Part shown: in pieces, positions 1 through 61,656 of the stretch
Layout: the number at the start of each line of letters is the position of its first letter
How positions within the stretch are numbered: position 1 is the first letter of the stretch
Assembly (NCBI GenBank): GCA_019055375.1
Contig: JAHQIW010000287.1
Location: 1-64,000 of the forward strand
Reading direction: 5' to 3'
Length of the DNA stretch: 64,000 bases
Source of the DNA: Parelaphostrongylus tenuis
Lineage: Eukaryota; Nematoda; Chromadorea; Rhabditida; Metastrongylidae
Position numbers and translations under genes: made by a program
Notes under the pieces: generated by a model
The model's input: only the letters and a program-made list of their open reading frames with translations
What the model was told of the DNA's origin: nothing
The model's database searches: none

Positions 1-638
1 AATCCACATTGCCATCGGACGTGCCGCTCAATGTTCGATTTTAGCAAAAAAGGTCTGATTGCGATGTGGATTTTTGAAAAGGGGATTTTTGCATTTTGGA
101 CTTTTTCCGACAGCAAATCCATCAACGCCGTCTTTACTGGCGGAACAAGACTGGACGCGAGTCACGACAAAAGTTGGCCGGGAGAAGTTACCCATAACGT
201 TTTTTCGGTCGAAAGCGCGCTTTGTTTCAACAACTTACAACGCAAAACCGCCACCACACAGCCAAAAAGACCAAAGCAAAGTTGGAGGTAGTTGAAACCG
301 GAGTTTGGGATTTTACCGCACCCCCTTATTAGGTCCGGAACTGTGCTCCAGTCTGATTACGGCCTTTTCCGATCAGTGCAACACTTTTTTTTGGAAGGTC
401 CGCTCGATTTGAATCTTTCGATAAAGTTGGAGCAGCATGCCAGATTTTTTTGATTTCAAGCTGAAAGAAGTGGTACTATCGATCAAATCCCGAAATCTTG
501 CCGGATCCGAAATGACAAAAGGCGGTGGATTTATGGCCTGTAGAGTTTAAAGAAATAGTTAGTGTTGTTTGTTGTCTGAATACTTTAGTAAATTTGGAAT
601 TTTTTAATCAAACGATGGAACTTTTTTTCAACCTAGTA
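1..638 (+). mobile_element. mariner transposon, 3' part, decayed
   Basis: This is the C-terminal half of a mariner transposase followed by the element's right terminal inverted repeat. The fragment starts outside the window. Reading across frameshifts, the block around 95-290 matches residues of the better preserved copy in the eIF5A intron (SGKSINA, RKRALF, then a region that in active mariners holds the third catalytic aspartate). The right terminus at about 610-638 (AAACGATGGAAC, then CAACCTAG) repeats the end of that copy at 10462-10490 almost base for base, so both belong to one subfamily. Stops and frameshifts make it inactive. The stretch 640-1990 that follows has no recognisable gene or repeat. 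Confidence 0.85.
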
Positions 639-4787: not shown

Positions 4788-5066
4788 AAAAAAAAAAGGA
4801 ATGTCCGAAAGCCCTAAGCGAGGTTGTACGCCAGGGCTATACACGCATGTTTCGGTCTCGCCCCCTCGTCGGTAGCCCACGCCCCACATTAAGCCCTGCA
4901 TTGTAACAAGGAGGGAGGCCTATATGGTGATTACACAGTGTACAATGACACTGGTCCATCACCACTTCTCAGTCGATGGATCTCGAACTGGTAGAACAAA
5001 AATTGATCCAATGGTGTCAACTGTTTTTGAAACCTCGCAATAAACATTCAAAATAATTCCAAAAAA
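4788..5066 (-). repeat. Hammerhead-bearing repeat, family R1, copy 1
   Basis: About 280 bp clearly related to 56704-57098 and, more distantly, to 38316-38525. Shared blocks include the stretch from CGAGGTTGTACGCCAGGG through GCCCCACATTAAGCCCTGCA and GTCGATGGATC to AATAAACATTCAAAAT near the end. Both ends are A-rich and the first few bases recur after the last block, as if the copy were slightly more than one monomer of a head-to-tail array. It holds a hammerhead-like motif on the - strand (separate entry). No coding capacity is seen; it would need proteins from another element to move. Confidence 0.85.
4833..4879 (-). ncRNA. Hammerhead ribozyme-like motif, one core change
   Basis: Read on the - strand: stem I 5' strand GGGCTA, core CCGACGA (canonical would be CUGACGA, so U4 is C), a weak stem II, GAAA, palindrome-like stem III CATGCGTG, cleavage triplet GUA, stem I 3' strand TAGCCC. 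Stem I pairs perfectly over 6 bp although its sequence differs from the sister copy at 56797-56847 (GGGTCA with TGGCCC); the paired changes support real structure. The U4 change and short stem II suggest loss of activity. Confidence 0.7.
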
Positions 5067-5069
5067 AGA

Positions 5070-6650
5070 AGTGATTTCTCATTTTTCGTCGTCCAATTGA
5101 TGTTCCTCACTTTTTAAGACTTTTCGACCCTTCTGATGTACTCTGGATTCTTCATACGAAGTGCTTTTACACGAGTTTATCGGAAGAATAACGTATGTTG
5201 TGCATGTACTTGTCACTCTCGTGTTTTTACTTTTTACTGCTGCCTATTATTTTTTCATGGCAAAATTAGATATGAAATACAACCACATGGATGTTGAGAT
5301 ATAGGCAAAACTTGAAATTTGTTATATGCCTTCTATCGTTTTCCAGTGTTCTCAAAATGTAGCAAGAGATATCATCTACTCCAATCGAGCAAATCCTATG
5401 ATTTCAACTACAATCATGCTTTTATAAACGAAGCAGGGTCTCTCTGAAGATCTTCTGCAGATATTTCTTTGCATGTTGTGTCCCATATGATCTCGTCAAT
5501 CATCTAGTGACTCAAGTAGGCAACAAGTAGCCTTCACTTGTCTTTGGACTATGTTATAGCACTATTACCTCAAGAATTGCCAGAAGCCATTGCATAACCT
5601 CAAGAAATGCCAGAAGCATCGCATTCATGTGCAATCTTTCTGGCTGCACTATTTTCTACAGCACGCTTCACACGTGTAACCTTCCTCACGTGTAGTTTCC
5701 TAAACACTGATAGTAACACAGAAATGTTTATCGGACACGAATCTAAAACCGCAACCGGCGTACTTTCCCGTTACTTAATCACAAGCCTTTCAGCGAACTG
5801 ACCGAACCAGGAGATACATAAACGCGGAGTTTATTCGAAGAATCCAATGTGCGTCATTTACAGTCGCGTTGACAAAACTGAAGTAAACCTTTAGGAAGCC
5901 ATTCCTATGTTGAAATTCTCACAAGCCGAAGATAAAAGGAATAAAGACATGTAATTTTCCGAATCATGCTCTAGGCTCTGTTTTAACAAGAATAAAAAAC
6001 AAGAACTACTCGAATATAGGGTCTTCGTAAATATTATTTCCAACTTACAGGTAGAGATTCTCAAATCTTAACAGGATTATGACCCTATAACCACCACAAA
6101 ATCCTTCTTGAGGCGTTATCAGAATGATCCTTTTTTTTTCACACACACACACGACTCGCTATCACACTTTACTGAGCAGATACCAGAACTTTTAGCACTC
6201 GAATTGTTTGCTCGCATTGTTCGTTCCAAAGGTTCTCGAAAATTTCGTGCCTTGTTTCGGTGTAGCTGCCTGAAGATTTCGTTTTCGTGAATGCCGCCAC
6301 GCATTGGTCCGAGCCAAATCTTCTTGCTACTGCTAGAGCTGGAAGTCGGACCAGCTCTTCGCTTTGTGGTAACTTCCTGATAACTTGCATCCCTCATCAT
6401 TTGGTTACCTTCCTCCTACCAGGATCTTACTATGAGGAGATGCAGATGTTTCTTCATCAAAAGAAATGTCACCATTTTGAATCTGATTTCCTCCCAAAAC
6501 GAGCGATTTTCAGTACGACGGTGTTTTACCTGTAACCAACTAGAATTGCCTTTATAATAACCACTTTCAGTGGAGCTTTCACATATATGCTTATGTAATA
6601 TTGAATGGTGGCATGATGTTATGAGCATCTATATGTACATCTATATAATG
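5070..6650. other. Stretch without identified gene
   Basis: No recognisable gene. A short direct repeat lies at 5568-5620 (CCTCAAGAAxTGCCAGAAGC, twice), and a CA-rich run at 6141-6152. The overlapping open frames at 6108-6535 have no domain I recognise. An AT dinucleotide run (6657-6674) closes the stretch. Confidence 0.5.
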
Positions 6651-8504: not shown

Positions 8505-11500
8505 ATGGCTGAGGAGCAGCATGACGACGAGCACTTTGCATCGGCCGAATCAGGCGCAGCAGCCACGTTCCCGAAACAGTGCTCAGCTCTTCGCAAGAAC
8601 GAGCACGTCATGATCAAAGGCCGCCCCTGTAAGGTGAGCCCGCTTGTCTCCACTTAGAAGAGTAATTAGGTGATCTATATCTATGAGCAGTCAGATTGGT
8701 TCTGCCGAGCATATTTACGATATTTTTTCCTCGTGTAGTCATCGTCTTTGGTAGGAGTGGAGCATGCTATCAGGTCGATCCATAAGTCAAGGCTCTAATG
8801 CAGTAAACACGAGATTTATCAACTAGAAGTGATTGAAATCAAATGATTTTAGTATCGGTCAGTTGCGCATTTTCTTGCGAACATTTTGATATACAGCTTG
8901 TCTGTACTTGCTTTGAGATGGAGCTGTAGTGGGAGCAAATTTGCTTGCTACTCATGCACGAATGGCGCGTTGAGGAAAGTGTTAGTGAAGCAGTGTGTGA
9001 GATCAATGGAGCTTGACACGGTTATACGGTTGTAGGAAAGACGCCTAGGAAGTGGTTCGCGAGGTTCAAAACCGGAAAGAACAGTCTGAAGGATCAGTCG
9101 CGCTCGAGCCATTCCATGGAAAGATCCAGTAAAGTTGCGCGCCGCCTCACTAACATTTTCCCGTCACGGGCCATTTGTGCACTTGTAGGAAGCGAATTTG
9201 TTTCAAGGACAGCTCCGTTTCGAAGTAAGCATAGACAAGATGTATACCAGAATGTTCACAAACAAATACGCAGTTGAACGATACCAAAACCATCCGGTTC
9301 AATTACTTTGGGTGTCTAAGTTTGATGTTTATTGCTTTAGTGTCAGAACTTATAGAAGGCCCTAGTACTGGTAAAACGTCCCAAATGATTTATAGCTTCA
9401 CAGTGGCTGGGAGGTGTTCCTGGGTGTCGGATTACGAAGTACAGTGGGGCATCAACATACCAAGAGGGTCACTCAAGCTGAAATGGAGTGCAACTTTTCA
9501 CTCAGAAAGTCTAGCCAAGAGTAAAGCGTACCTTGAGTTACTACTGTTTTGGTAGCTGCTAGTCGCGAGGTGATCTTCCTCCGATCCACAAGGACCGGAG
9601 AATGTGGTGACGACCTGAGGAGCGGTTAATCTTACCTCGGGACTCTAGAAAACAAAACAGTCAGCCAGCACAATTTTTTTTGAGCTGGGGCCGGCACCGT
9701 TAGTGAACGCGGACCGTTCAAATACATCAGTATGGTATATGTTTTTATTAGGTTGGAAAGAAATTTCCATCGTTGGGATGGGTATGTTCTTTTTTCGCAT
9801 GGATCGTGTGTGATTTTCATATCATTCGAAAGGTCTACTTGTGCAACTGTTGATATATAATTCATGTATATCTGCTGCAGAATGGAATTGTCCAGGGAAC
9901 AAAAACGTTTGTTGATGATTTACGATTGAAAATTTTGTTCAAATGTTGCTAATGCTGCTCGCCGAATCAACAACGCTTGGGACGACCGTACGGAATTTGA
10001 AGGGATTTTGCATTTTGACCTCGCTCCGAGTGGCAAATCCATCAACGCCAATCTTTACTTCGAGCAGCTGGACAGTTTACGACAAGTGACCGAGAAGTAC
10101 TCAGAACTTGTTCGTCGAAAGCGCGCTTTGTTTCGGAAGACAATGCAAAACCACACACAGCTAAAAAGACCAAGGCATAGTTGGAGGAATTGGACGGAGT
10201 TGAGATTCTACTGCATCCAGCCTATAGTCCGGACGTTGATCCATGTGATTACTTTTTTGGGAGGCCGCCGATTTGAATCTTTCGATGAAGTTGAAGAAGC
10301 ATGTCAAGAGTTTTTTGATTCAAAGCTGAAGGAGCGGTACCTTGACCGGATCGGAAGCTTGGCGGATCGATGGAAGTGGTGGATAATGATGACCTGTATT
10401 CTGAGTAATAGCTGTTGTTGTTTGTTGTCTGAGTATATGCGTAAATTTTGAATGTTTTATCAAACGATGGAAACTTTCTTCCCAACCTAGTATTTTAATT
10501 GGGACTTTTCAGGGCTTTAGGATTCAGTTTGAGTCTATTTTGAGATTGCGCTTTATCAGGCCGTCACAACAGGCCTATTGAAAGGCTAAATATGCTGTCA
10601 ATGTGTTCTTTAAGATTGTTGAAATGAGCACCTCGAAGACTGGCAAACACGGACACGCCAAGGTACATCTGGTGGCTCTGGACATCTTCACCAACAAAAA
10701 ACTCGAGGATATATGTCCATCTACTCACAATATGGATGTACCTGTCGTGAAGCGTCGTGAATTTATTGTAAGTTGTAACTTAATACGATTACTGCTCGTA
10801 AACAGTTTTGATAGTGAGTTACGCTTTGTTTGAATGCTCTTTGTCTTAATTTTTCTAGTATATCTGTGGTAATCTTTGTCATAATCAGTAGAAAATGAAC
10901 GAAAGTAGATCGCTGAAGGACTCATTATGATAGATCATCTTACGTTAAAAATAACCTAGGTGTCTTTTCTTCAATGGTTTTTATTTCAGCTAATGTCAAT
11001 CGAGGATGGTTTCTGCAGTCTGATGGATCCTGAAACCTGTGATTTGAAGCACGACCTCAAGATGCCAGAAGGAGAGCTTGGAATCAGATCAAGGAAGCAC
11101 TCGATAAGGATGAAGGATCGGTTCTTGTGAGTGACATTACATAGTCAAAAACAATTGTTCGCGATGCAATGATGGTTGGATAAGTTTCGTCTGATCTTTG
11201 TGATTGGAAGTGTGAACTGAGCATTGTGGACATTAGCAGCAACTTTTTTCATATTATTTATTTCACGGTGTGCGGAGGGTATCAGATTTTGAGACCACTG
11301 ACCTCTTTCCGGACCGTCCATCCACCTCGTCTGCGTCTCTAACCCCCAGCATGAGAACGCATTGGCTGTATTATTGTATTATCTAAGTTTATTGTTTTTG
11401 TTATTTTCCTATGTTTTTTATATATAAGTACTTTATTCTGTTATAAGCAGAAAAATCGATTGAAATATTGCTATGATATATTCAATGCGATACCACGCTG

Positions 11501-13994
11501 AGGGTTAAAGATGTAGAGGAGCTCAAGTAAACCTTCATTCGACTGCTTCAATAGAACTCGCTCAGAAACAGTAATAATCTGGTATCCTTATAACATGTTT
11601 TGAGCCTTTCATGAAATCTGGTAATGGCACTTATACAGTATTTGACAAGGTTGTTCCGCCTTTTCAAGCTCGTCAGTAATACGGTGTCTTTCGGTTCAGC
11701 CGTTCTTTTACAGACCTGTCTAGTACTGTGTAAGTGCCGCACAAGACCTCATAAAAGACTCAAAATGTGTCATCATATTGCTAGATCATTATGGTTTTTG
11801 AGCGAGGTTCATAGAAGAAGTCGAATGAAGAGGTATGATTCATCAGTCACGAGCTCGACTGCTAGTCACTGCAGTGTCGGGGGATATTATTGCTTGTGGT
11901 GATTTGTTATTCGGTGTCGAGTACTTTATAGTTAGAGGTATATACCCTTTGCAAGGAATAGTTTGAACCGAAAGGCACTGTACTACTGATGAGCCTGGAG
12001 TGGCGAAACAGGCCTGTGTAGTACTGTGTAAGTGCCGTACAAGACCTCATACCTCATAAAGGAAAACATATGAAGCAGATCGTGCTGCGTTGCCACACTA
12101 GGGTTCAGAGATGCAGAGGCGAAAGGGTTAACTGAGCGGTTAGAATAGTCTTCGATAAACAAGCGATCTCCATTTTTCTAATCCGCAAACTTTTTGGGAA
12201 GCTGCTTTAAACGTGTTATAGCAATTGTGCTATTTAAGATTGTCATTGTGGATGTTTACTTGTGACCATATTACCTATTGTGAGATCTCTGTGTAAAAGC
12301 TAATGGATAGTGCTGTGGAATGTTGACTATCACCATTTGCGGCAAAGCGTGGTTGGTTTCAGAGGAATGCCATATTGGTCTTTGAATCTATTTAATGCGA
12401 CCCGTTGCCACATTTTTTGCTTGGATAACAGCATTCTTGCGTTCGATCCGTTTTTTTCCATCCTTTTTTCGCAAAGGTATTCGAGCATTTTGCGTTTTGT
12501 TCTGCTCACCGAGAGTTCCATCTTCTTAGCGGATGTTGTGGTGTTCGCTTAGACGATTTTTGCAATCTTGGAAGTAACCGAGCTAAGACGTTCCTACGGG
12601 GTCAGTTGATTGGTTGCAAAGAGTGCTGGAGGAGATCTAGCCAGGGTATCGCTTATTCTTTCTGCTTCCTGGCCACTGCATTTCTAGCCACTGCGCACCT
12701 CGTCCTTATAATTTGATTCGGCGATACTTTTGATACTAGTAGTTTGCATCCATTTATTGTTGCACTTCTGACAAATCTTAGTAGGGCTAAAGTGATTTTT
12801 TGAGATTTGTGAACTAATAAACCCCAATCTGTAGTATAGTAATTGTCAAAAGTTCGTCAAAGTCACTTAGTGACCTTTAAATATGTTACTGTTACTTCTG
12901 AAAATGATTTAGCTATATGCGATATCGATAGCCAATACGACGAGTTGTGGGAATGTGATAATCGCTATAACTCCTAACTGATAAATAATGAGAGGAATCG
13001 CCACTGCAGTCTATGTATTTTTTGTTTTTTGCTCTTCAACTTGTTTCATTAGTACGCTAGTCTTTTGAGTATGCGTGCTGAGCACTTGGCGTCATGAGAA
13101 GTTACTAGTGGGAATGTTCGAAAACGTTTTTAAACCTGTTAAAATGCGTTTTATTTCTGCAGTTGTATACAGTAACGATCAAAGTCCGATTTCCAATTTA
13201 TTACAGCTTCTGCATACAATCGAAGCCTAATTTTTCACTACGCGCGATGTGAATTGAGGCTGACTCTTGCCAAGCAATTTGTTCACACTTGCCTATTACT
13301 TACAGATTATTTCATCGGCATCACTTCTCGCTACTCTTACGGTGCAAAATTGAATACCTAAGGTTGTCAAGTGGTACGCATAGGCCTGTTGTTATCTGCC
13401 TTATGTACGAGAATTTCTTCATCAATAACTGTCTTTATCGAGCAAATCCCTTCGATGAGTTTGTTGCGCAGTGTTATGTATCGGTTAAACTGAGTCTAGA
13501 AGGTCGTTTGGAAATTCTTCTAAATAAATGTAAGAAAACGAGTTAGTATTAAATTGGTCAGTATTTGAGTGTACAAAACAGGCGTCGGTAGTGCAGCGGT
13601 TCGAGCACGCGCCCCCGGATAGGATGAAATGTGGGTTTTAGTCCTACCTGACGGAAAAGTTTGCACATCGCTCTACATTAATGGGTAGGTTATAATAACA
13701 TATCATCCCTAAAAGCGGATAAATGTGAAGAATTCTGTTCAAGTTAGTATCATTCTAAGGAGGCAGATCTTTCCAGGTTTGCAATAAAGTGCACGTCAGA
13801 CCCTTTTCGAGTTGTAAATTTAAATCGTTCAGCACTATCATGGAACATTTCCACTTACAGAATTGGAAACATTCTGGAGATCTCATTTCAGTACTTTGTG
13901 GACATCTATGGAGGTATATTTATTGTAGGTCTCGGTTGTGTCTGCTTGTGGGGAAGAGGCCATTCTTGGATACAAGATCTCCACCAAGGACTAA
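8505..13994 (+). CDS. eIF5A: Translation factor eIF5A, four exons, frameshift in exon 3
   Basis: eIF5A binds the ribosome near the E and P sites and aids peptide bond formation at difficult sequences and termination; it is the only protein carrying hypusine. Coding exons: 8505-8633, 10615-10767, 10990-11126, 13929-13994, all with GT-AG borders (donors GTGAGC, GTAAGT, GTGAGT; acceptors TTAAG, TTTCAG, TTGTAG). The product is 161 residues, the usual nematode length. It starts [17 protein letters not shown] and shows the hypusine loop [12 protein letters not shown] (modified Lys about residue 54), the PSTHNMDVP motif and the C-terminal GEEAILGYK. Exon 3 is 137 nt where 138 are needed: after GELG one base is missing, and the expected [14 protein letters not shown] appears only in the next frame. 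This is either an assembly or read error, or a disabled copy. Introns 1 and 3 carry transposons. Assignment to eIF5A is near certain; its functionality is open. Confidence 0.95.
8826..9312 (+). mobile_element. Non-autonomous mariner in eIF5A intron 1 (first)
   Basis: Terminal inverted repeats of about 45 bp: the left (8829-8872, with TTTTAGTATCGGTCAGTTGC) matches the reverse complement of 9268-9312. Inside, at about 9035-9160, a + strand reading [20 protein letters not shown] resembles the second helix-turn-helix and linker of mariner transposase. Total 490 bp, so most of the catalytic domain is deleted. A second copy in opposite orientation lies at 54960-55268. Confidence 0.75.
9748..10492 (+). 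mobile_element. Internally deleted mariner in eIF5A intron 1 (second)
   Basis: The ends are clear: GGTTGGAAAGAAATTTCCAT at 9751 pairs with the reverse complement of ATGGAAACTTTCTTCCCAAC ending at 10485, with TA at both junctions as expected for mariner target duplication. The transposase starts at 9882 ([15 protein letters not shown], then a stop), continues as [19 protein letters not shown], and jumps to the C-terminal part at 10008-10451 ([19 protein letters not shown] to [19 protein letters not shown]). The jump shows an internal deletion of the region with the first catalytic aspartate; the DNxxPH and YSPDxxPxDY regions are damaged by frameshifts. It sits in the sense direction inside the intron, 120 bp before exon 2. 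Confidence 0.9.
11588..12076 (+). mobile_element. Fold-back element, hammerhead family R2, in eIF5A intron 3
   Basis: Two nested units. The left arm 11588-11690 (CTTATACAGTAxTTGAC, then GCxTTTTCAAGCTCGTCAGT) is the reverse complement, with changes, of the arm at 11965-12076. A shorter right arm also lies at 11712-11786. The centre shares with 55455-55690 a block reading GGTATGATTCATxxxxx and GCAGTGTCGGGGGAT. Related elements: 14820-15110, 47280-47541, 52331-52576, 55455-55690, 61391-61656. No protein is encoded. The right arm holds a hammerhead motif on the + strand. Confidence 0.8.
11974..12036 (+). ncRNA. Hammerhead motif, perfect core but G at cleavage site
   Basis: Stem I 5' strand GGCAC...GTACTA, core CTGATGA (11986-11992), stem II GCC/GGC with a 6-nt loop, GAAA (12005-12008), stem III CAGGCCTG (self-complementary), then U and G, stem I 3' strand TAGTAC...GTGCC. 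All stems pair. The residue at the cleavage position (12018) is G, which hammerheads do not cut; the sister arm at 11715-11725 reads CTGTC at this place, the permitted GUC. One point change thus probably silenced this copy. It lies within the eIF5A pre-mRNA intron in the sense direction. Confidence 0.8.
13580..13700 (+). repeat. Possible tRNA-like SINE head
   Basis: TCGGTAGTGCAGCGGTTCGA resembles a polymerase III A box, and TGGGTTTTAGTCCTACC a weak B box 40 bp later. It lies in eIF5A intron 3 and differs from the main SINE family. Single copy here, so uncertain. Confidence 0.3.
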
Positions 13995-16199: not shown

Positions 16200-17330
16200 G
16201 AATATGTATGCATATAAAGCATGTGATTGTGTAGAGGAAGTGTTTCGTGGTGTTTCAAACTATCAGGAAAGGCCTTGTTCTTCTCCATCGCAACTTGAGA
16301 GGCGCGCGATTTTTGTTTTCTATTTAAAAGTTTTTCCCCCTTTCGTAAAAGTTCATTAGTTTTCACCTTAGGATTGTAGAGTCAACTTCGTTCCATCGTT
16401 TTACAAGCATTGACTTTTATGTTCGTTTCATACTGTGGCTATGAAATGTTGTATGTAATATTCTTTCCACTCTTGCAGCGATCTGAGTGGACTTTTTTTG
16501 AATTTGAGATTTGAGCTATCAAATAGATTCTAGAAGTTTAGCGAAAAGTCACCTAAAGATTGTAGCCGGGTGTACAAAACATATTGGGAGTGTAACATAA
16601 TTTTATTTTCGCTGCCACAGCATACTGAAGAGGCATTTTTGAGAACGAAACGCAGTGTTGAAATCTATGCTCCTTGAGCTATCGACTGAGTACTAGAAGT
16701 TGGGTGAAAAAGCTTTGTTCAGCGAAAAAAGGTCTCTAAATATTCATGGTACGAAGACGTACCATGCCATCCCAAGCGGGTTAACTTGCAACCGAGGAAG
16801 ATCTATGAGGAAAACTAATTAGAAAAGAATCGTCAGGAAAAAGATCGTCTTCGCATTTTGCTTGGATTCTTTGATATCCACTTGTCTTTCGTCAACTGTT
16901 TTTTGTAGGACATATACTACACCTCAGCGTTCTTCACCTAAAGAACTAAGTGTTGGTTAAGCTGATGTTTTCGTGACATTTCAATTGAAATGAAAAGGTA
17001 GAATAGATTGAAGTCGTCCCGCATTGAACGGGTAAAGGTGTCAAATAACAAAACGCGAAAGTCAAATCTTCCACCAGGAGAAGTTATGATGTTATGATAT
17101 CATCAAGTAGCGGCTAATTGAATAACACTGTAATTACTTAAATATTTTAAATCATTATGATGGAGAAGTACTTCAAAAATTCAGCAGATATTGCTCTTCG
17201 AGACCATAAGGTCTACGACCGTAAGTTATAATTTAAAATGAAATAAATACTCCTTTGACGGACGTTGTTATGAGTATTGTTAGAAAATAGGGAGGATGCA
17301 GTGATAATTACGTAGATGGTTCAACTAATG
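16200..17330. other. Stretch without identified gene
   Basis: No domain, RNA gene or known repeat copy recognised. Short frames only. Confidence 0.5.
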
Positions 17331-37399: not shown

Positions 37400-38310
37400 T
37401 TCGAACCGAGCCTGCGTGTCATTCAAGTTTCTATATTTGAAACTGGCACATTGGTACCATATCCATTTCTTAGATGAAAAGAAAACCATTAACCTGATAC
37501 AATGGTGCCCTCCTTCCTTCCTCTTCTGAGTTATTCTAGGAATTTCTTTATCATTACGATAATGGAGTGGAATGTGTGAACCATTCCCAGAGAGGATCAA
37601 AGCGAAACGCTTTATCCTTCATCTTCTATTCACCGCAACCTTTCATGTCACCATTGTCTTTCCTCCCAGTACCACTACTCTTATTTTAGTCAATCACTAC
37701 AGCTGACGTCCATGGTTGCGAAGTTCTTCAGAAAAGCGGAAAAAGAACTTCAGAAGGAGCGAGCGACCTGATAAGTGGAAGCCGATAAGACTAAAAAACT
37801 GGAAGAGTACACCCGTCGTACGTCTTCCATAGCATGACAGCATTTCATAGCATGCTTGATGACTGACTGAACATAAATCATGCTTGCCAACTTGTTTACT
37901 TGTATGCTCATTGAACTAACTTTCTCCATCTGGTCTTCATCTCTTTGTTTTTGAAGAAGAATCCAATCTGATAATTACAGCTGAATTTGAAATATGCCTG
38001 TTTGGATTGTACAACTATCACGAGATTATTATTTAAACTATATTCGGTCAAAGCTTCGACGTCTTTGCTTTCTTCAAAGCCAATTGATCCAATTTGATAG
38101 TCCACAGTCACTCGCCCTCGTGTTGTGAGTTTTCGTAGTTGTAACGAGTCGAATATTCTTGAGGTAAACACCGTTTTAATAAGTTTTATAATATTTGAAA
38201 TAAGGTTTGAAGTAAAAACTTATTCTTTGTACATAGGCGTAGAACAAATGTGGCACACATCTCATCCACCGTTTTTATACCTAGCTTTGAATGAGAATGT
38301 TCAGAGCCTT
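37400..38310. other. Stretch without identified gene
   Basis: The long - strand frame at 37178-37600 overlaps the tRNA-like repeat and has no domain. Nothing else recognised. Confidence 0.45.
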
Positions 38311-38315
38311 TTCAA

Positions 38316-38525
38316 GATCCTCACGTCAGAGCCATACGTACGTCTCAATGGTGTCGCCGCTTCATTAGTGGTCCACGCCTTACATTGAACCCTACTCTAC
38401 AGCAGGGATGGGGAGAGGTTATTTATGGTTATAGCACTTGATATTGTGCTATCACCATTTTTTCCAGTCGATGGATCATGGGTGGTAGTGAATTTGTACA
38501 AATCCATCTGATCGACTCTTTATAG
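38316..38525 (-). repeat. Hammerhead repeat family R1, diverged copy
   Basis: Shares with 4788-5066 the order CCACGCCTTACATTGAACCC, GGGATGGGGAGAGG, TATCACCA and CAGTCGATGGATC. The ribozyme region on the - strand (38319-38370) keeps the stem III palindrome CGTACG, GUA and short stem I pairing (CCA/TGG), but the core reads CTAATGA and GAGA, so it should be inactive. Confidence 0.65.
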
Positions 38526-38529
38526 ACCT

Positions 38530-39050
38530 CTATTCAGACATTCTCTCAACCGTGAAAAGGCACTAAACATTCTCACAGGCTATTTTGAATGTTTGAAACG
38601 AGGTTAAAAAGCAGTCGACGAGATGGATTTCTACATATTCACTGTCAGCCGTAATTCATCAATTACAAAAAGTAGTGGTAACACAATATCATGCGCTACT
38701 ACTATAGAGAACGTCTCGCCACCCATATTAAGTTGCGTTCAGCGTGAGCGGGAGCCAGTGATGAAACGGGCGAAACCGCCGAAGCGTACGTATGGCACTG
38801 ACGTGGCAACCTCGAAAATGCTCTGAACATTATCACAGACAGATGTGACTTTTATAGTACTGTCATACTTTTACCTAATACTCACAGTGTAGGAAACGAT
38901 TAAATCCTTAGGAAATTGAAATACCTCAGGCAATTTATTTTGAATAATCGTTCCAATTCTTCAGCAGCTATATCAGTTTTTGAATTACCTATCCATCTAT
39001 ATAAATTTATATACATATAAAGTATGTATGTATAGTGTATAATGTATTAT
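38530..39050. other. Stretch without identified gene
   Basis: No gene recognised; AT-rich run at 38995-39045. Confidence 0.5.
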
Positions 39051-50855: not shown

Positions 50856-51284
50856 GCCTGGAAATCATTTTTGAGCCACGCATGTCAGTGGTATGTCAAA
50901 GAGGGCTGACCTATTGCATCGATACACGTGTTTTGATCTTGCGATCTCGTCAGTCGGGCAGTTACCCTTTCTCGTCTTTGAGCTGTGGGCTTAAGAAAAC
51001 ACTCGAGACGAAAGTTATGATACATTGAATATACTAGCCACAAGCAATCGAGTGTACAACAATCTGTGTTCGGTGATGATTTCACTGGACATAGAGTGTA
51101 AAACGTTCGTCGTCGCTAACTCTTAGTGTGGGGACTTGAGCACCCACACAGGATTGGCAAAAGACGAGAAAGGGTAACTGCCCGACTGACGAGATCGCAA
51201 GATCAAAACACGTGTATCGCGGTCTGTAGGTCGGCCCTCTTTGACATACCACTGACATGCGTGGCTCAAAAATGATTGCCAGGC
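50856..51284. mobile_element. Fold-back element, hammerhead family R3
   Basis: Arms 50856-50980 and 51159-51284 are reverse complements at high identity (GCCACGCATGTCAGTGGTAT, GTCAAAGAGGGC, CACGTGTTTTGATCTTGCGA, GTTACCCTTTCTCGTCTTTG). The 178-bp centre is unassigned. Each arm carries the same hammerhead-like motif pointing outward: on the - strand at 50919-50956 and on the + strand at 51184-51219. Confidence 0.85.
51184..51219 (+). ncRNA. Hammerhead-like motif with AAAA in place of GAAA
   Basis: Core CTGACGA (51186-51192), stem II GATC/GATC closed by a GCAA tetraloop, then AAAA, stem III CACGTG (palindrome), cleavage triplet GUA, stem I CGA/TCG. The only deviation from a canonical hammerhead is A at position 12, normally an essential G. 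The left arm (50919-50956, - strand) has the identical change, so it predates the arm duplication or was spread by conversion. Confidence 0.55.
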
Positions 51285-56703: not shown

Positions 56704-57098
56704 ATTAAGTCGACTGTTTCTAAAACCTCGTAATAAACATTCAAAATCAAATCCAAAAAAAAGAATGTTTTTAGCCTAACACGAGGTTGGTACGCCAGGG
56801 CCATACACCGGTGTTTCGGAGGCTCGTCCTCCTCGTCAGTGACCCCCGCCCCACAATAAGCCCTGCATTGTAGCAAGGAGGGAGGCGTATGTGGTATGTG
56901 GTGATGGCATAGTGTACAATACACTGGTCCATCACCATCAGTCGATGGTTTTGGCTGGTAGACCAAAACTAATCCATTAAGTCGACTGTTTCTAAAACCT
57001 AGTAATAAACATTCAAAATCAAATCCAAAAAAAGAATGTTTTTAGCCTAACACGAGGTTGGTACGCCAGGGCCATACACCGGTGTTTCCGAGGCTCGT
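56704..57098 (-). mobile_element. Hammerhead repeat family R1, head-to-tail partial dimer
   Basis: A 123-bp block (56704-56827) recurs almost unchanged at 56976-57098, giving a period of about 271 bp and 1.45 copies. The second copy ends in a TAA microsatellite inside the ribozyme stem II loop. The first copy is complete and holds a canonical hammerhead on the - strand. Related copies: 4788-5066 and 38316-38525. Tandem copies of a short, non-coding, ribozyme-bearing monomer are what small circular-RNA retroelements (retrozymes) leave in genomes; that role is inferred here. Confidence 0.9.
56797..56847 (-). ncRNA. Hammerhead ribozyme, type I, complete
   Basis: Read on the - strand: stem I 5' strand GGGTCA (56845-56840), core CTGACGA (56839-56833), stem II GGAGG/CCTCC with loop ACGAG, GAAA (56817-56814), stem III CACCGGTG (self-complementary, 56813-56806), U then A (cleavage after 56804, triplet GUA), stem I 3' strand TGGCCC (56803-56798). 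Every conserved residue is present and all stems pair. Stem III has no loop, so two RNAs pairing through it (a double hammerhead) is the likely active form. Confidence 0.9.
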
Positions 57099-61390: not shown

Positions 61391-61656
61391 TAGCATGTTT
61401 TTAGTATTTTAGAGGTCTGGTATGGCACTTTGGTGCTAGACGTACGTTTCGGCTTTCATGTCAAGCCTCTTCAGTAGCACATGCTTTTCGCTTCAAACCT
61501 AGCCCCTACATGTTAGGGTATCGGCGCCTAACATTTTACACTGCATCGAACAACGAATGGCATATGCTTCTGATGAGGCGTTACATGAAGGCCAAAACGT
61601 GGGTCTAGCACTCGAAGTGCCATGTCACACCTCTAAACGGCTCAAAATGTGCTATC
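61391..61656. mobile_element. Fold-back element, hammerhead family R2, with intact ribozyme
   Basis: About 90-bp inverted arms: left GTAGCATGTTTTTAGTATTT, AGAGGTCTGGTATGGCACTT; right GTGCCATGTCACACCTCTAA, ACGGCTCAAAATGTGCTAT. The left arm has a complete hammerhead on the - strand (separate entry). The right arm, on the + strand at 61570-61625, keeps CTGATGA, GUC and stem I but has AAAA in place of GAAA. Confidence 0.85.
61432..61481 (-). ncRNA. Hammerhead ribozyme, type I, complete
   Basis: On the - strand: stem I 5' strand GTGCTA (61480-61475), core CTGAAGA (61474-61468), stem II GGCTT with AAGCC closing a loop of 7 nt, GAAA (61450-61447), stem III CGTACG (self-complementary), U and C (GUC, cleavage after 61439), stem I 3' strand TAGCAC (61438-61433). 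All invariant residues are present; stem I pairs over 6 bp and an outer GGCAC-like segment may extend it. The palindromic stem III without loop again favours a dimeric form. Confidence 0.9.

Follow-up and report, generated by a model that had tools for sequence, protein, structure and literature searches.

A probable hammerhead retrozyme family in the nematode Parelaphostrongylus tenuis with insertion ends resembling those of resident Penelope-like elements

The first 64,000 nt of contig JAHQIW010000287.1 of Parelaphostrongylus tenuis (assembly GCA_019055375.1), hereafter called the window, carry a tandem repeat in which a hammerhead ribozyme had been predicted, together with the suggestion that the repeat moves by a small autonomous RNA cycle. 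The locus raises the question of whether this repeat is a mobile element and, if so, which enzyme moves it. The mover of animal retrozymes is an open matter; in the portions of the literature used here, Penelope-like elements (PLEs) are named as likely candidates on the basis of their coexistence with retrozymes (PMC7229834, PMC7761336). The window repeat is very probably a non-coding, non-autonomous, non-LTR retrozyme with a type I hammerhead, mobilised by Penelope-like machinery.

The repeat and its ribozyme

The window copy and its ribozymes were delimited as follows.

56704..57098, minus strand: probable retrozyme insertion, family RZ1; 395 nt, or 1.46 units of 271 nt
56798..56845, minus strand: complete type I hammerhead core, by direct reading; predicted cut between 56804 and 56803
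57069..57098, minus strand: upstream ribozyme copy, truncated; runs from the stem II loop to past the cut site at 57075/57074

The copies within 56704–57098 were spaced 271 nt apart, in agreement with the original prediction of a 271-nt tandem repeat in about 1.45 copies. The predicted absence of protein also held, with no open reading frame (ORF) of at least 100 amino acids overlapping 56704–57098; the repeat is non-coding. The GC content of the unit was 0.465, below 50%, and no LTR–internal–LTR layout was seen in the family loci.

Direct reading of the minus strand confirmed the predicted canonical type I core with its three stems and GUA triplet. Stem I (GGGUCA/UGGCCC, positions 56845–56840 with 56803–56798) consists of six pairs, one of them U-G, and is followed by CUGACGA at 56839–56833; stem II (GGAGG/CCUCC, 56832–56828 with 56822–56818) encloses the loop ACGAG; GAAA lies at 56817–56814; and stem III is palindromic (ACACCGGUGU, 56814–56805), with the triplet GUA. 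The pattern CTGANGA-N8-20-GAAAC-N4-8-GTH occurred four times in the window against 0.11 expected, a number reached in none of 100 shuffles. Of 103 fuzzy ribozyme matches in the 39 family loci, which include one duplicate, 87 retained every core letter checked. An arm with at least two intact cores was present in 23 of 38 loci; the window copy has one. In two loci of diverged copies, GCA replaces GTA at the cut site (two of three copies in L011:2672-3947 and both copies in L044:2957-3343).

A covariance-model search had been proposed as a check on the prediction, with the lack of a hit to be held against the ribozyme. Rfam gave no match at the gathering score in the window or in eight related loci, and no hammerhead at E ≤ 10 in 801 or 83 bases around the ribozyme, in searches that had no positive control for the short-stem-III form; by that standard, the outcome counts against the ribozyme. 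Folded alone, the ribozyme formed stem II in its top-ranked single structure, the whole hammerhead being absent. The isolated ribozyme folded no better than shuffles (z between −0.02 and −1.03), and minimum-free-energy folds including segments of L067 and L062 gave z values between −1.03 and 0.76. The circular fold of the window unit reached −82.9 kcal/mol (z −3.58 against 200 shuffles, 63% paired) and does not itself display the hammerhead. In the ribozyme alignment, in which one row lacked the 3′ half and stem III of L062 was misplaced, 87.1% of cells paired as against 23.6–47.2% for slid partners. Covariation in it fell short of significance, with a single two-sided change over 14 pairs and as much covariation in 253 of 500 shuffles, and the same was found for the box 1/box 2 helix described below; both results are put down to conserved letters that leave little room to vary. 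What supports the putative ribozyme is the conservation of its core letters; Rfam, folding and covariation contribute nothing to the case. With a palindromic stem III this short, two ribozymes may work together as a dimer, as hammerheads with a weak stem III in the axolotl are reported to do, according to the part of PMC7229834 used here.

Insertion ends, arms and template

A DNA search of the genome (481.5 Mb in 5105 contigs) gave at least 95 matches to the family, with 39 of 2421 candidates scored. The 39 best-scoring loci were taken, and 38 remained once L040, which has the same flanks as L039 and duplicates it, had been removed; the far arms of L011 and L044 were excluded. Full units measured 266–278 nt (53 units in 37 loci).

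Two arms were joined head-to-head, with their 3′ ends outward, in 25 of the 38 loci, a frequency that is not unbiased because the loci were the best-scoring ones. The outer 3′ ends fell mainly into two zones, counted in nt after the cut: site A at 95–126 (observed 98–124) and site B at 33–75 (observed 35–71). These classes were drawn after seeing the retrozyme data, and the comparison with Penelope elements was made without them. Among 63 outer 3′ ends, 32 were in A, 26 in B and 5 elsewhere. By locus, the combinations were A+B in 21, 5′/A in 9, 5′/B in 2, 5′/other in 2, A/other in 2, B/other in 1, B+B in 1 and A+A in none; that is, 21 of the 22 loci with both ends classed were A+B (p = 5e−6 against independent equal choice). 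Only the extension of L026 was retained in the refinement of ends. Exact target-site duplications of at least 9 nt were found at 20 of 38 loci, compared with 5 of 1406 mismatched flank pairs; they were 9–14 nt long and 75% A+T. No duplication of this length was found at the other 18 loci, which include the window copy and also L035, whose 12-nt repeat lies beyond the search window and was counted as no duplication.

Taken together, the dispersal and the 3′ ends of these insertions, their inverted arms and their duplications are a signature of retrotransposition. The tandem arrangement of the units would also be expected of a satellite that unequal crossing-over or rolling-circle amplification of DNA had spread, in which the hammerhead would be incidental, and newt satellites with hammerheads were the earliest examples from animals, as given in the part of PMC7229834 used here. 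The dispersed short insertions, the two preferred 3′ ends, the head-to-head arms and the 9–14-nt duplications largely refute a satellite origin, which is barely credible for this family.

The arms were up to 3.93 units long and ran through the cut site. Their 5′ ends were variable; an apparent fixed 5′ end had arisen from the end of the query itself. The cut was not enriched for 5′ ends (2 of 63, with 2.3 expected), whereas 26 of 63 lay within the ribozyme, against 11.9 expected (p = 3e−5, for a region chosen after looking), a pattern that might be produced by stalling of the enzyme on the folded ribozyme.

Since the arms cross the cut and 5′ ends show no excess there, the template was not mainly cut linear RNA and would have been a circle or an uncut multimer. 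Pooled mismatches amounted to 198 in 6800 positions within arms (2.91%) and 137 in 4672 between the arms of a locus (2.93%), as if all units and both arms derive from one template sequence; a derivation of the two arms from two different RNA molecules was not borne out by these values. Arms were most closely related to their own partner in only 4 of 24 loci, and partner arms were on average closer to each other than to other loci (95.6 vs 93.2%). A circle and an uncleaved multimer are indistinguishable from sequence. We consider it rather unlikely, though clearly worth weighing, that the template was an uncleaved multimeric read-through transcript and that the ribozyme is dispensable for movement. 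Such a transcript would account for arms that freely cross the cut site, and between-arm mismatch exceeded within-arm mismatch in only 8 of 24 loci; a slight excess of mismatch within arms would fit a multimer. In the portion of PMC11167929 used here, moreover, ribozyme-dead RNA of an Anolis PLE was still used in vitro, and the ribozyme of that element cut only when protein was present. Against it stand the near identity of units within an arm (97.7% over 17 pairs, vs 94.7% over 1358 pairs between loci), their similar length (p = 0.02), the equal pooled mismatch within and between arms, as expected of one repeatedly read unit, and the intact core residues in most copies. A circular template is the reading carried forward here.

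The window insertion itself has its 3′ end at site A, its 5′ end falls within the loop of ribozyme stem II, and it is one of the nine 5′/A loci. Neither a second (B) arm nor a clear target-site duplication was found for it, and its truncated ribozyme has neither CUGANGA nor the 5′ strand of stem I or of stem II. With a single complete ribozyme, unit-length RNA cannot be cut out of this copy in cis; the copy is most likely an incomplete product comprising one arm and one complete ribozyme.

Another family copy lies at 4798–5070 of the window (minus strand), extending for about one unit from site-B zone to site-B zone; its core is not intact (CCGACGA), and it is flanked by a CACTTCTT repeat. At L018:1476-2871, a three-part array was seen in which the 5′ end of a B-started arm joins a segment beginning at site A, which might reflect a jump of the enzyme to the start site on a different RNA.

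A start region common to the repeat and Penelope-like elements

The segment after the cut contains the following features in the window copy.

56782..56788, minus strand: box 1, AACCTCG; 5′ side of the proposed initiation hairpin, common to the PLEs of the genome
56735..56770, minus strand: inner hairpin, AAACATTC/GAATGTTT; coincides with the site B start zone (35–71 nt after the cut)
56724..56730, minus strand: box 2, CGAGGTT; complementary to box 1
56704..56715, minus strand: AGTCG motif, with the 3′ terminus of the window copy; start zone of site A (98–124 nt after the cut in the family)

PLE genes are abundant in the same genome, with at least 150 matches to the GIY-YIG domain (PF01541), all over the cut-off (150 of 1723 candidates scored), many of them in neighbouring outward-pointing pairs. 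Both RVT_1 and GIY-YIG domains were found in L067, with a frame of 891 amino acids, and in L071. For one Penelope protein, the closest named relatives among 77 proteins were in Necator, Ancylostoma and Haemonchus, the top hit being unnamed; by this protein the host is a strongylid nematode. These reverse transcriptase/GIY-YIG proteins sit in elements separate from the repeat, which itself lacks the ORF with a telomerase-like reverse transcriptase and (canonically) GIY-YIG that defines a PLE.

The ends of the Penelope elements resembled those of the retrozyme. The two-arm copies L067–L071 had exact 12-nt direct repeats in five of five cases, while pairs from different loci gave 7–9 nt (n = 20), and in all five, the near site was the end of one arm and the far site the end of its partner. 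Four of them ended at +58..62 and +101..110; L070, which has a longer leader, ended at +114 and +176. Among further Penelope pairs, repeats of at least 11 nt occurred in 11 of 16, against 4 among 240 mismatched pairs; each of the 11 had one end at +52..66 and the other at +101..116 (A+B). Over both sets, 21 Penelope pairs were examined, and the 16 whose duplications reached 11 nt were all A+B. Of the remaining pairs, C2832, C4780 and C360 had no duplication of at least 11 nt and arms ending, by eye, near B and near A; C626 had a 10-nt duplication with ends at +63 and +122; and the ends of C411 were not resolved. None of these five pairs was counted as A+B with duplication. A further locus, L072, yielded nothing. 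Starts lay at +52..66 and +101..116 in the main Penelope family and at +35..71 and +98..124 in the retrozyme. Except for L071, these loci were picked as outward-pointing pairs, and the head-to-head share among them is that of a selected set.

The post-cut order was the same in the retrozymes and the PLEs: box 1 ((A)ACCTCG), site B, box 2 (CGAGGTT...AGTCG) and site A, the last lying directly after AGTCG. In L067, box 2 is located at the start of the ORF (ATGCCGAGGTTAATAGACAGTCGG), and the layout of L064 is alike. When the retrozyme segment 56803–56705 was compared with L064 and L070, the score was 59, a value reached by none of 5000 dinucleotide shuffles; the similarity to L067, of the main Penelope family, was weaker (score 31; 10 of 5000 shuffles as high), as was the motif similarity for the other unit copy of the window (p = 0.001 and 0.014). 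In an unselected tile scan over seven Penelope loci, the top tile was the start element in L060, L067, L069 and L070 (in both arms of L070) and lay elsewhere in three of the seven: it was a separate retrozyme piece in L064 and L071, and it covered the start region on the opposite strand in L068. The outer helix of box 1 and box 2 was paired in 97.3% of cells, and the whole structure in 92.4%, compared with 31.3–46.7% for slid partners; covariation in the hairpin did not exceed shuffles (one two-sided change).

The hammerhead, boxes 1 and 2 and the ends, all as in PLEs, would likewise be expected if the repeat were an internally deleted PLE (a solo pLTR derivative) and did not form a separate retrozyme lineage. 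This origin is improbable. The unit without its ribozyme (u131-247) was no more similar to two post-cut Penelope segments than shuffles were, and a BLAST search of the doubled unit against 20 GIY-YIG loci (L047–L066) gave clear matches only in L062 and L064, which may be read as ribozyme repeats beside the gene. The palindromic stem III of the repeat is also longer than that in PLEs. In the account that we favor, the repeat and the PLEs are distinct elements with a common start element.

Twin priming by LINEs yields inverted 5′ parts, and ordinary twin priming would produce inverted arms if a LINE mobilised the retrozyme. LINEs are named along with PLEs as possible movers in the part of PMC7229834 used here. 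The start sites of the retrozyme, however, are internal to the unit, clustered and paired as A+B, and the same ends, duplications and boxes occur in the PLEs of this genome; a LINE is a very unlikely mover, and Penelope-like machinery remains the preferred one.

The retrozyme-like nature originally proposed for the repeat is supported, as the family fits published animal non-LTR retrozymes. The proposed small autonomous RNA cycle is not supported: the family insertions have target-site duplications and paired ends like those of the resident Penelope-like reverse transcriptases, and the window copy, with its one complete ribozyme, would release no unit in cis. From the duplications and the Penelope-like paired ends, the element most likely needs a Penelope protein in trans.

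Proposed mechanism and relation to known elements

We infer self-cleavage and RNA circles by analogy with the published family. Multi-unit array transcripts would cut themselves into 271-nt units, and these would be closed into circles. A Penelope-like reverse transcriptase/GIY-YIG endonuclease would then recognise the post-cut box 1/box 2 hairpin, which is common to its own RNA, and would cut the two strands of an A/T-rich target at positions about 12 bp apart. One cDNA would be made for each target strand, one begun at site A and the other at site B, each covering from part of a unit up to several rounds of the template, and the two would be joined head-to-head; this structure is seen in the products, and the order of the steps is conjectural. 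We see an evenly balanced case for the full scheme, in which retrozymes parasitise PLEs through the same bipartite hairpin, each insertion requires both an A-cDNA and a B-cDNA, made on opposite target strands from one small circular RNA, and the ribozyme leads to the circle and the circle to multi-unit arms.

Metazoan non-LTR retrozymes, in the sections of Cervera and de la Pena 2020 (PMC7229834) used here, have type I hammerheads, units of ~170–400 nt in dimers to multimers, a GC content below 50% and duplications, when present, of more than 4 bp; they coexist with PLEs, which are called a strong candidate for mobilising them. The class is further marked by tandem units of 150–450 bp, by the lack of an LTR, a primer-binding site and a polypurine tract, by a predicted stable, self-paired circular RNA and by unit-length RNA, linear and circular, in the animal. 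The repeat is like them in its type I hammerhead, tandem units, GC content below 50%, duplications of more than 4 bp and coexisting PLEs. It differs in its nematode host (the string 'nematod' occurs 0 times in the main text of that paper) and in its inverted head-to-head arms, its two paired start sites and the hairpin shared with PLEs ('inverted' occurs 0 times in the main text). Plant LTR retrozymes, in the portions of PMC4918200, PMC7229834 and PMC7761336 used here, are likewise non-autonomous and have a hammerhead and a circular RNA, as would the repeat, for which circles are inferred, but they differ in their type III hammerhead, LTRs, 4-bp duplications and likely Gypsy partner.

The repeat also has counterparts among PLEs. 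Cervera and de la Pena are said to have described the hammerheads of PLEs in 2014. In the part of PMC11167929 used here, the Anolis PLE has two adjacent internal start sites, for which no strand difference was seen. It cuts and extends both DNA strands and prefers A/T-rich targets, and its minimal RNA extends over the first 172 nt of the ORF. The retrozyme resembles such PLEs with minimal hammerheads in its two adjacent internal post-cut starts, its use of both strands and its A/T-rich targets, which are here read from insertions; unlike them, it is non-coding and has another ribozyme (a ACACCGGUGU stem III and a six-pair stem I). The pairing of start sites within one insertion is not mentioned in that part of the paper. 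The Penelope elements of Adineta vaga, in the part of PMC3846280 used here, have head-to-head inverted pLTRs, one with an extra 31-bp 'tail' and an inverted copy 37 bp shorter. They resemble the retrozyme in these head-to-head arms and in target-site duplications, which are 8–10 bp there, but are coding, with captured host genes, and their inversions are ascribed to self-priming on an antisense template, not to two start sites.

In the open-access literature searched, no retrozyme was found described with start sites in pairs, with arms joined head-to-head or with a start element of the Penelope kind, and no report of a nematode retrozyme was found. The repeat belongs to the animal non-LTR retrozymes, and what is new is the paired ends, the head-to-head arms, the duplications and the Penelope start element. 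With retrozymes and PLEs in one genome sharing paired starts, head-to-head products, duplication length and an initiation motif, the question of retrozyme mobility becomes directly testable by biochemistry. The paired A/B ends are a sequence signature to seek in other animals, and the pairing of the two sites constrains models of both-strand insertion by Penelope enzymes.

An older, diverged subfamily of the repeat, 74–84% identical to its copy in L062, gave at least 51 matches (40 of 1486 candidates scored). With 20 further places taken in, 24 segments were inspected: CTGANGA and GAAAC were kept in 11, the GTH triplet as well in 9; AACCTCG was exact in 15 and had at most one change in 23; and CGAGGTT was exact in 8. 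To judge from these letters, the subfamily is more decayed than RZ1. An old head-to-head insertion of it, with decayed ribozymes, occupies 38292–38521 (minus strand) and 38557–38847 (plus strand) of the window.

Several other sequences were seen in the window. A third hammerhead-like repeat family, with inverted arms (CTGACGAGATCGCAAGATCAAAACACGTGTA), is present at 50868–50948 and 51191–51272, where its core is not intact; similar motifs occur near the Penelope loci L058, L066 and L071 and in L101. Hammerhead-like motifs at 61439–61474 (minus strand) and 11986–12020 (plus strand) belong to one other family, with stems I of GTGCTA/TAGCAC and GTACTA/TAGTAC, respectively; the former has a complete core and a GTC triplet. 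The fourth match to the ribozyme pattern lies at 16625–16659 (plus strand; CTGAAGA...GAAACGCAGTGTT), and 10008–10451 (plus strand) gave a weak match to PF01359, a partial DDE transposase, at 20.3 bits against a cut-off of 24.
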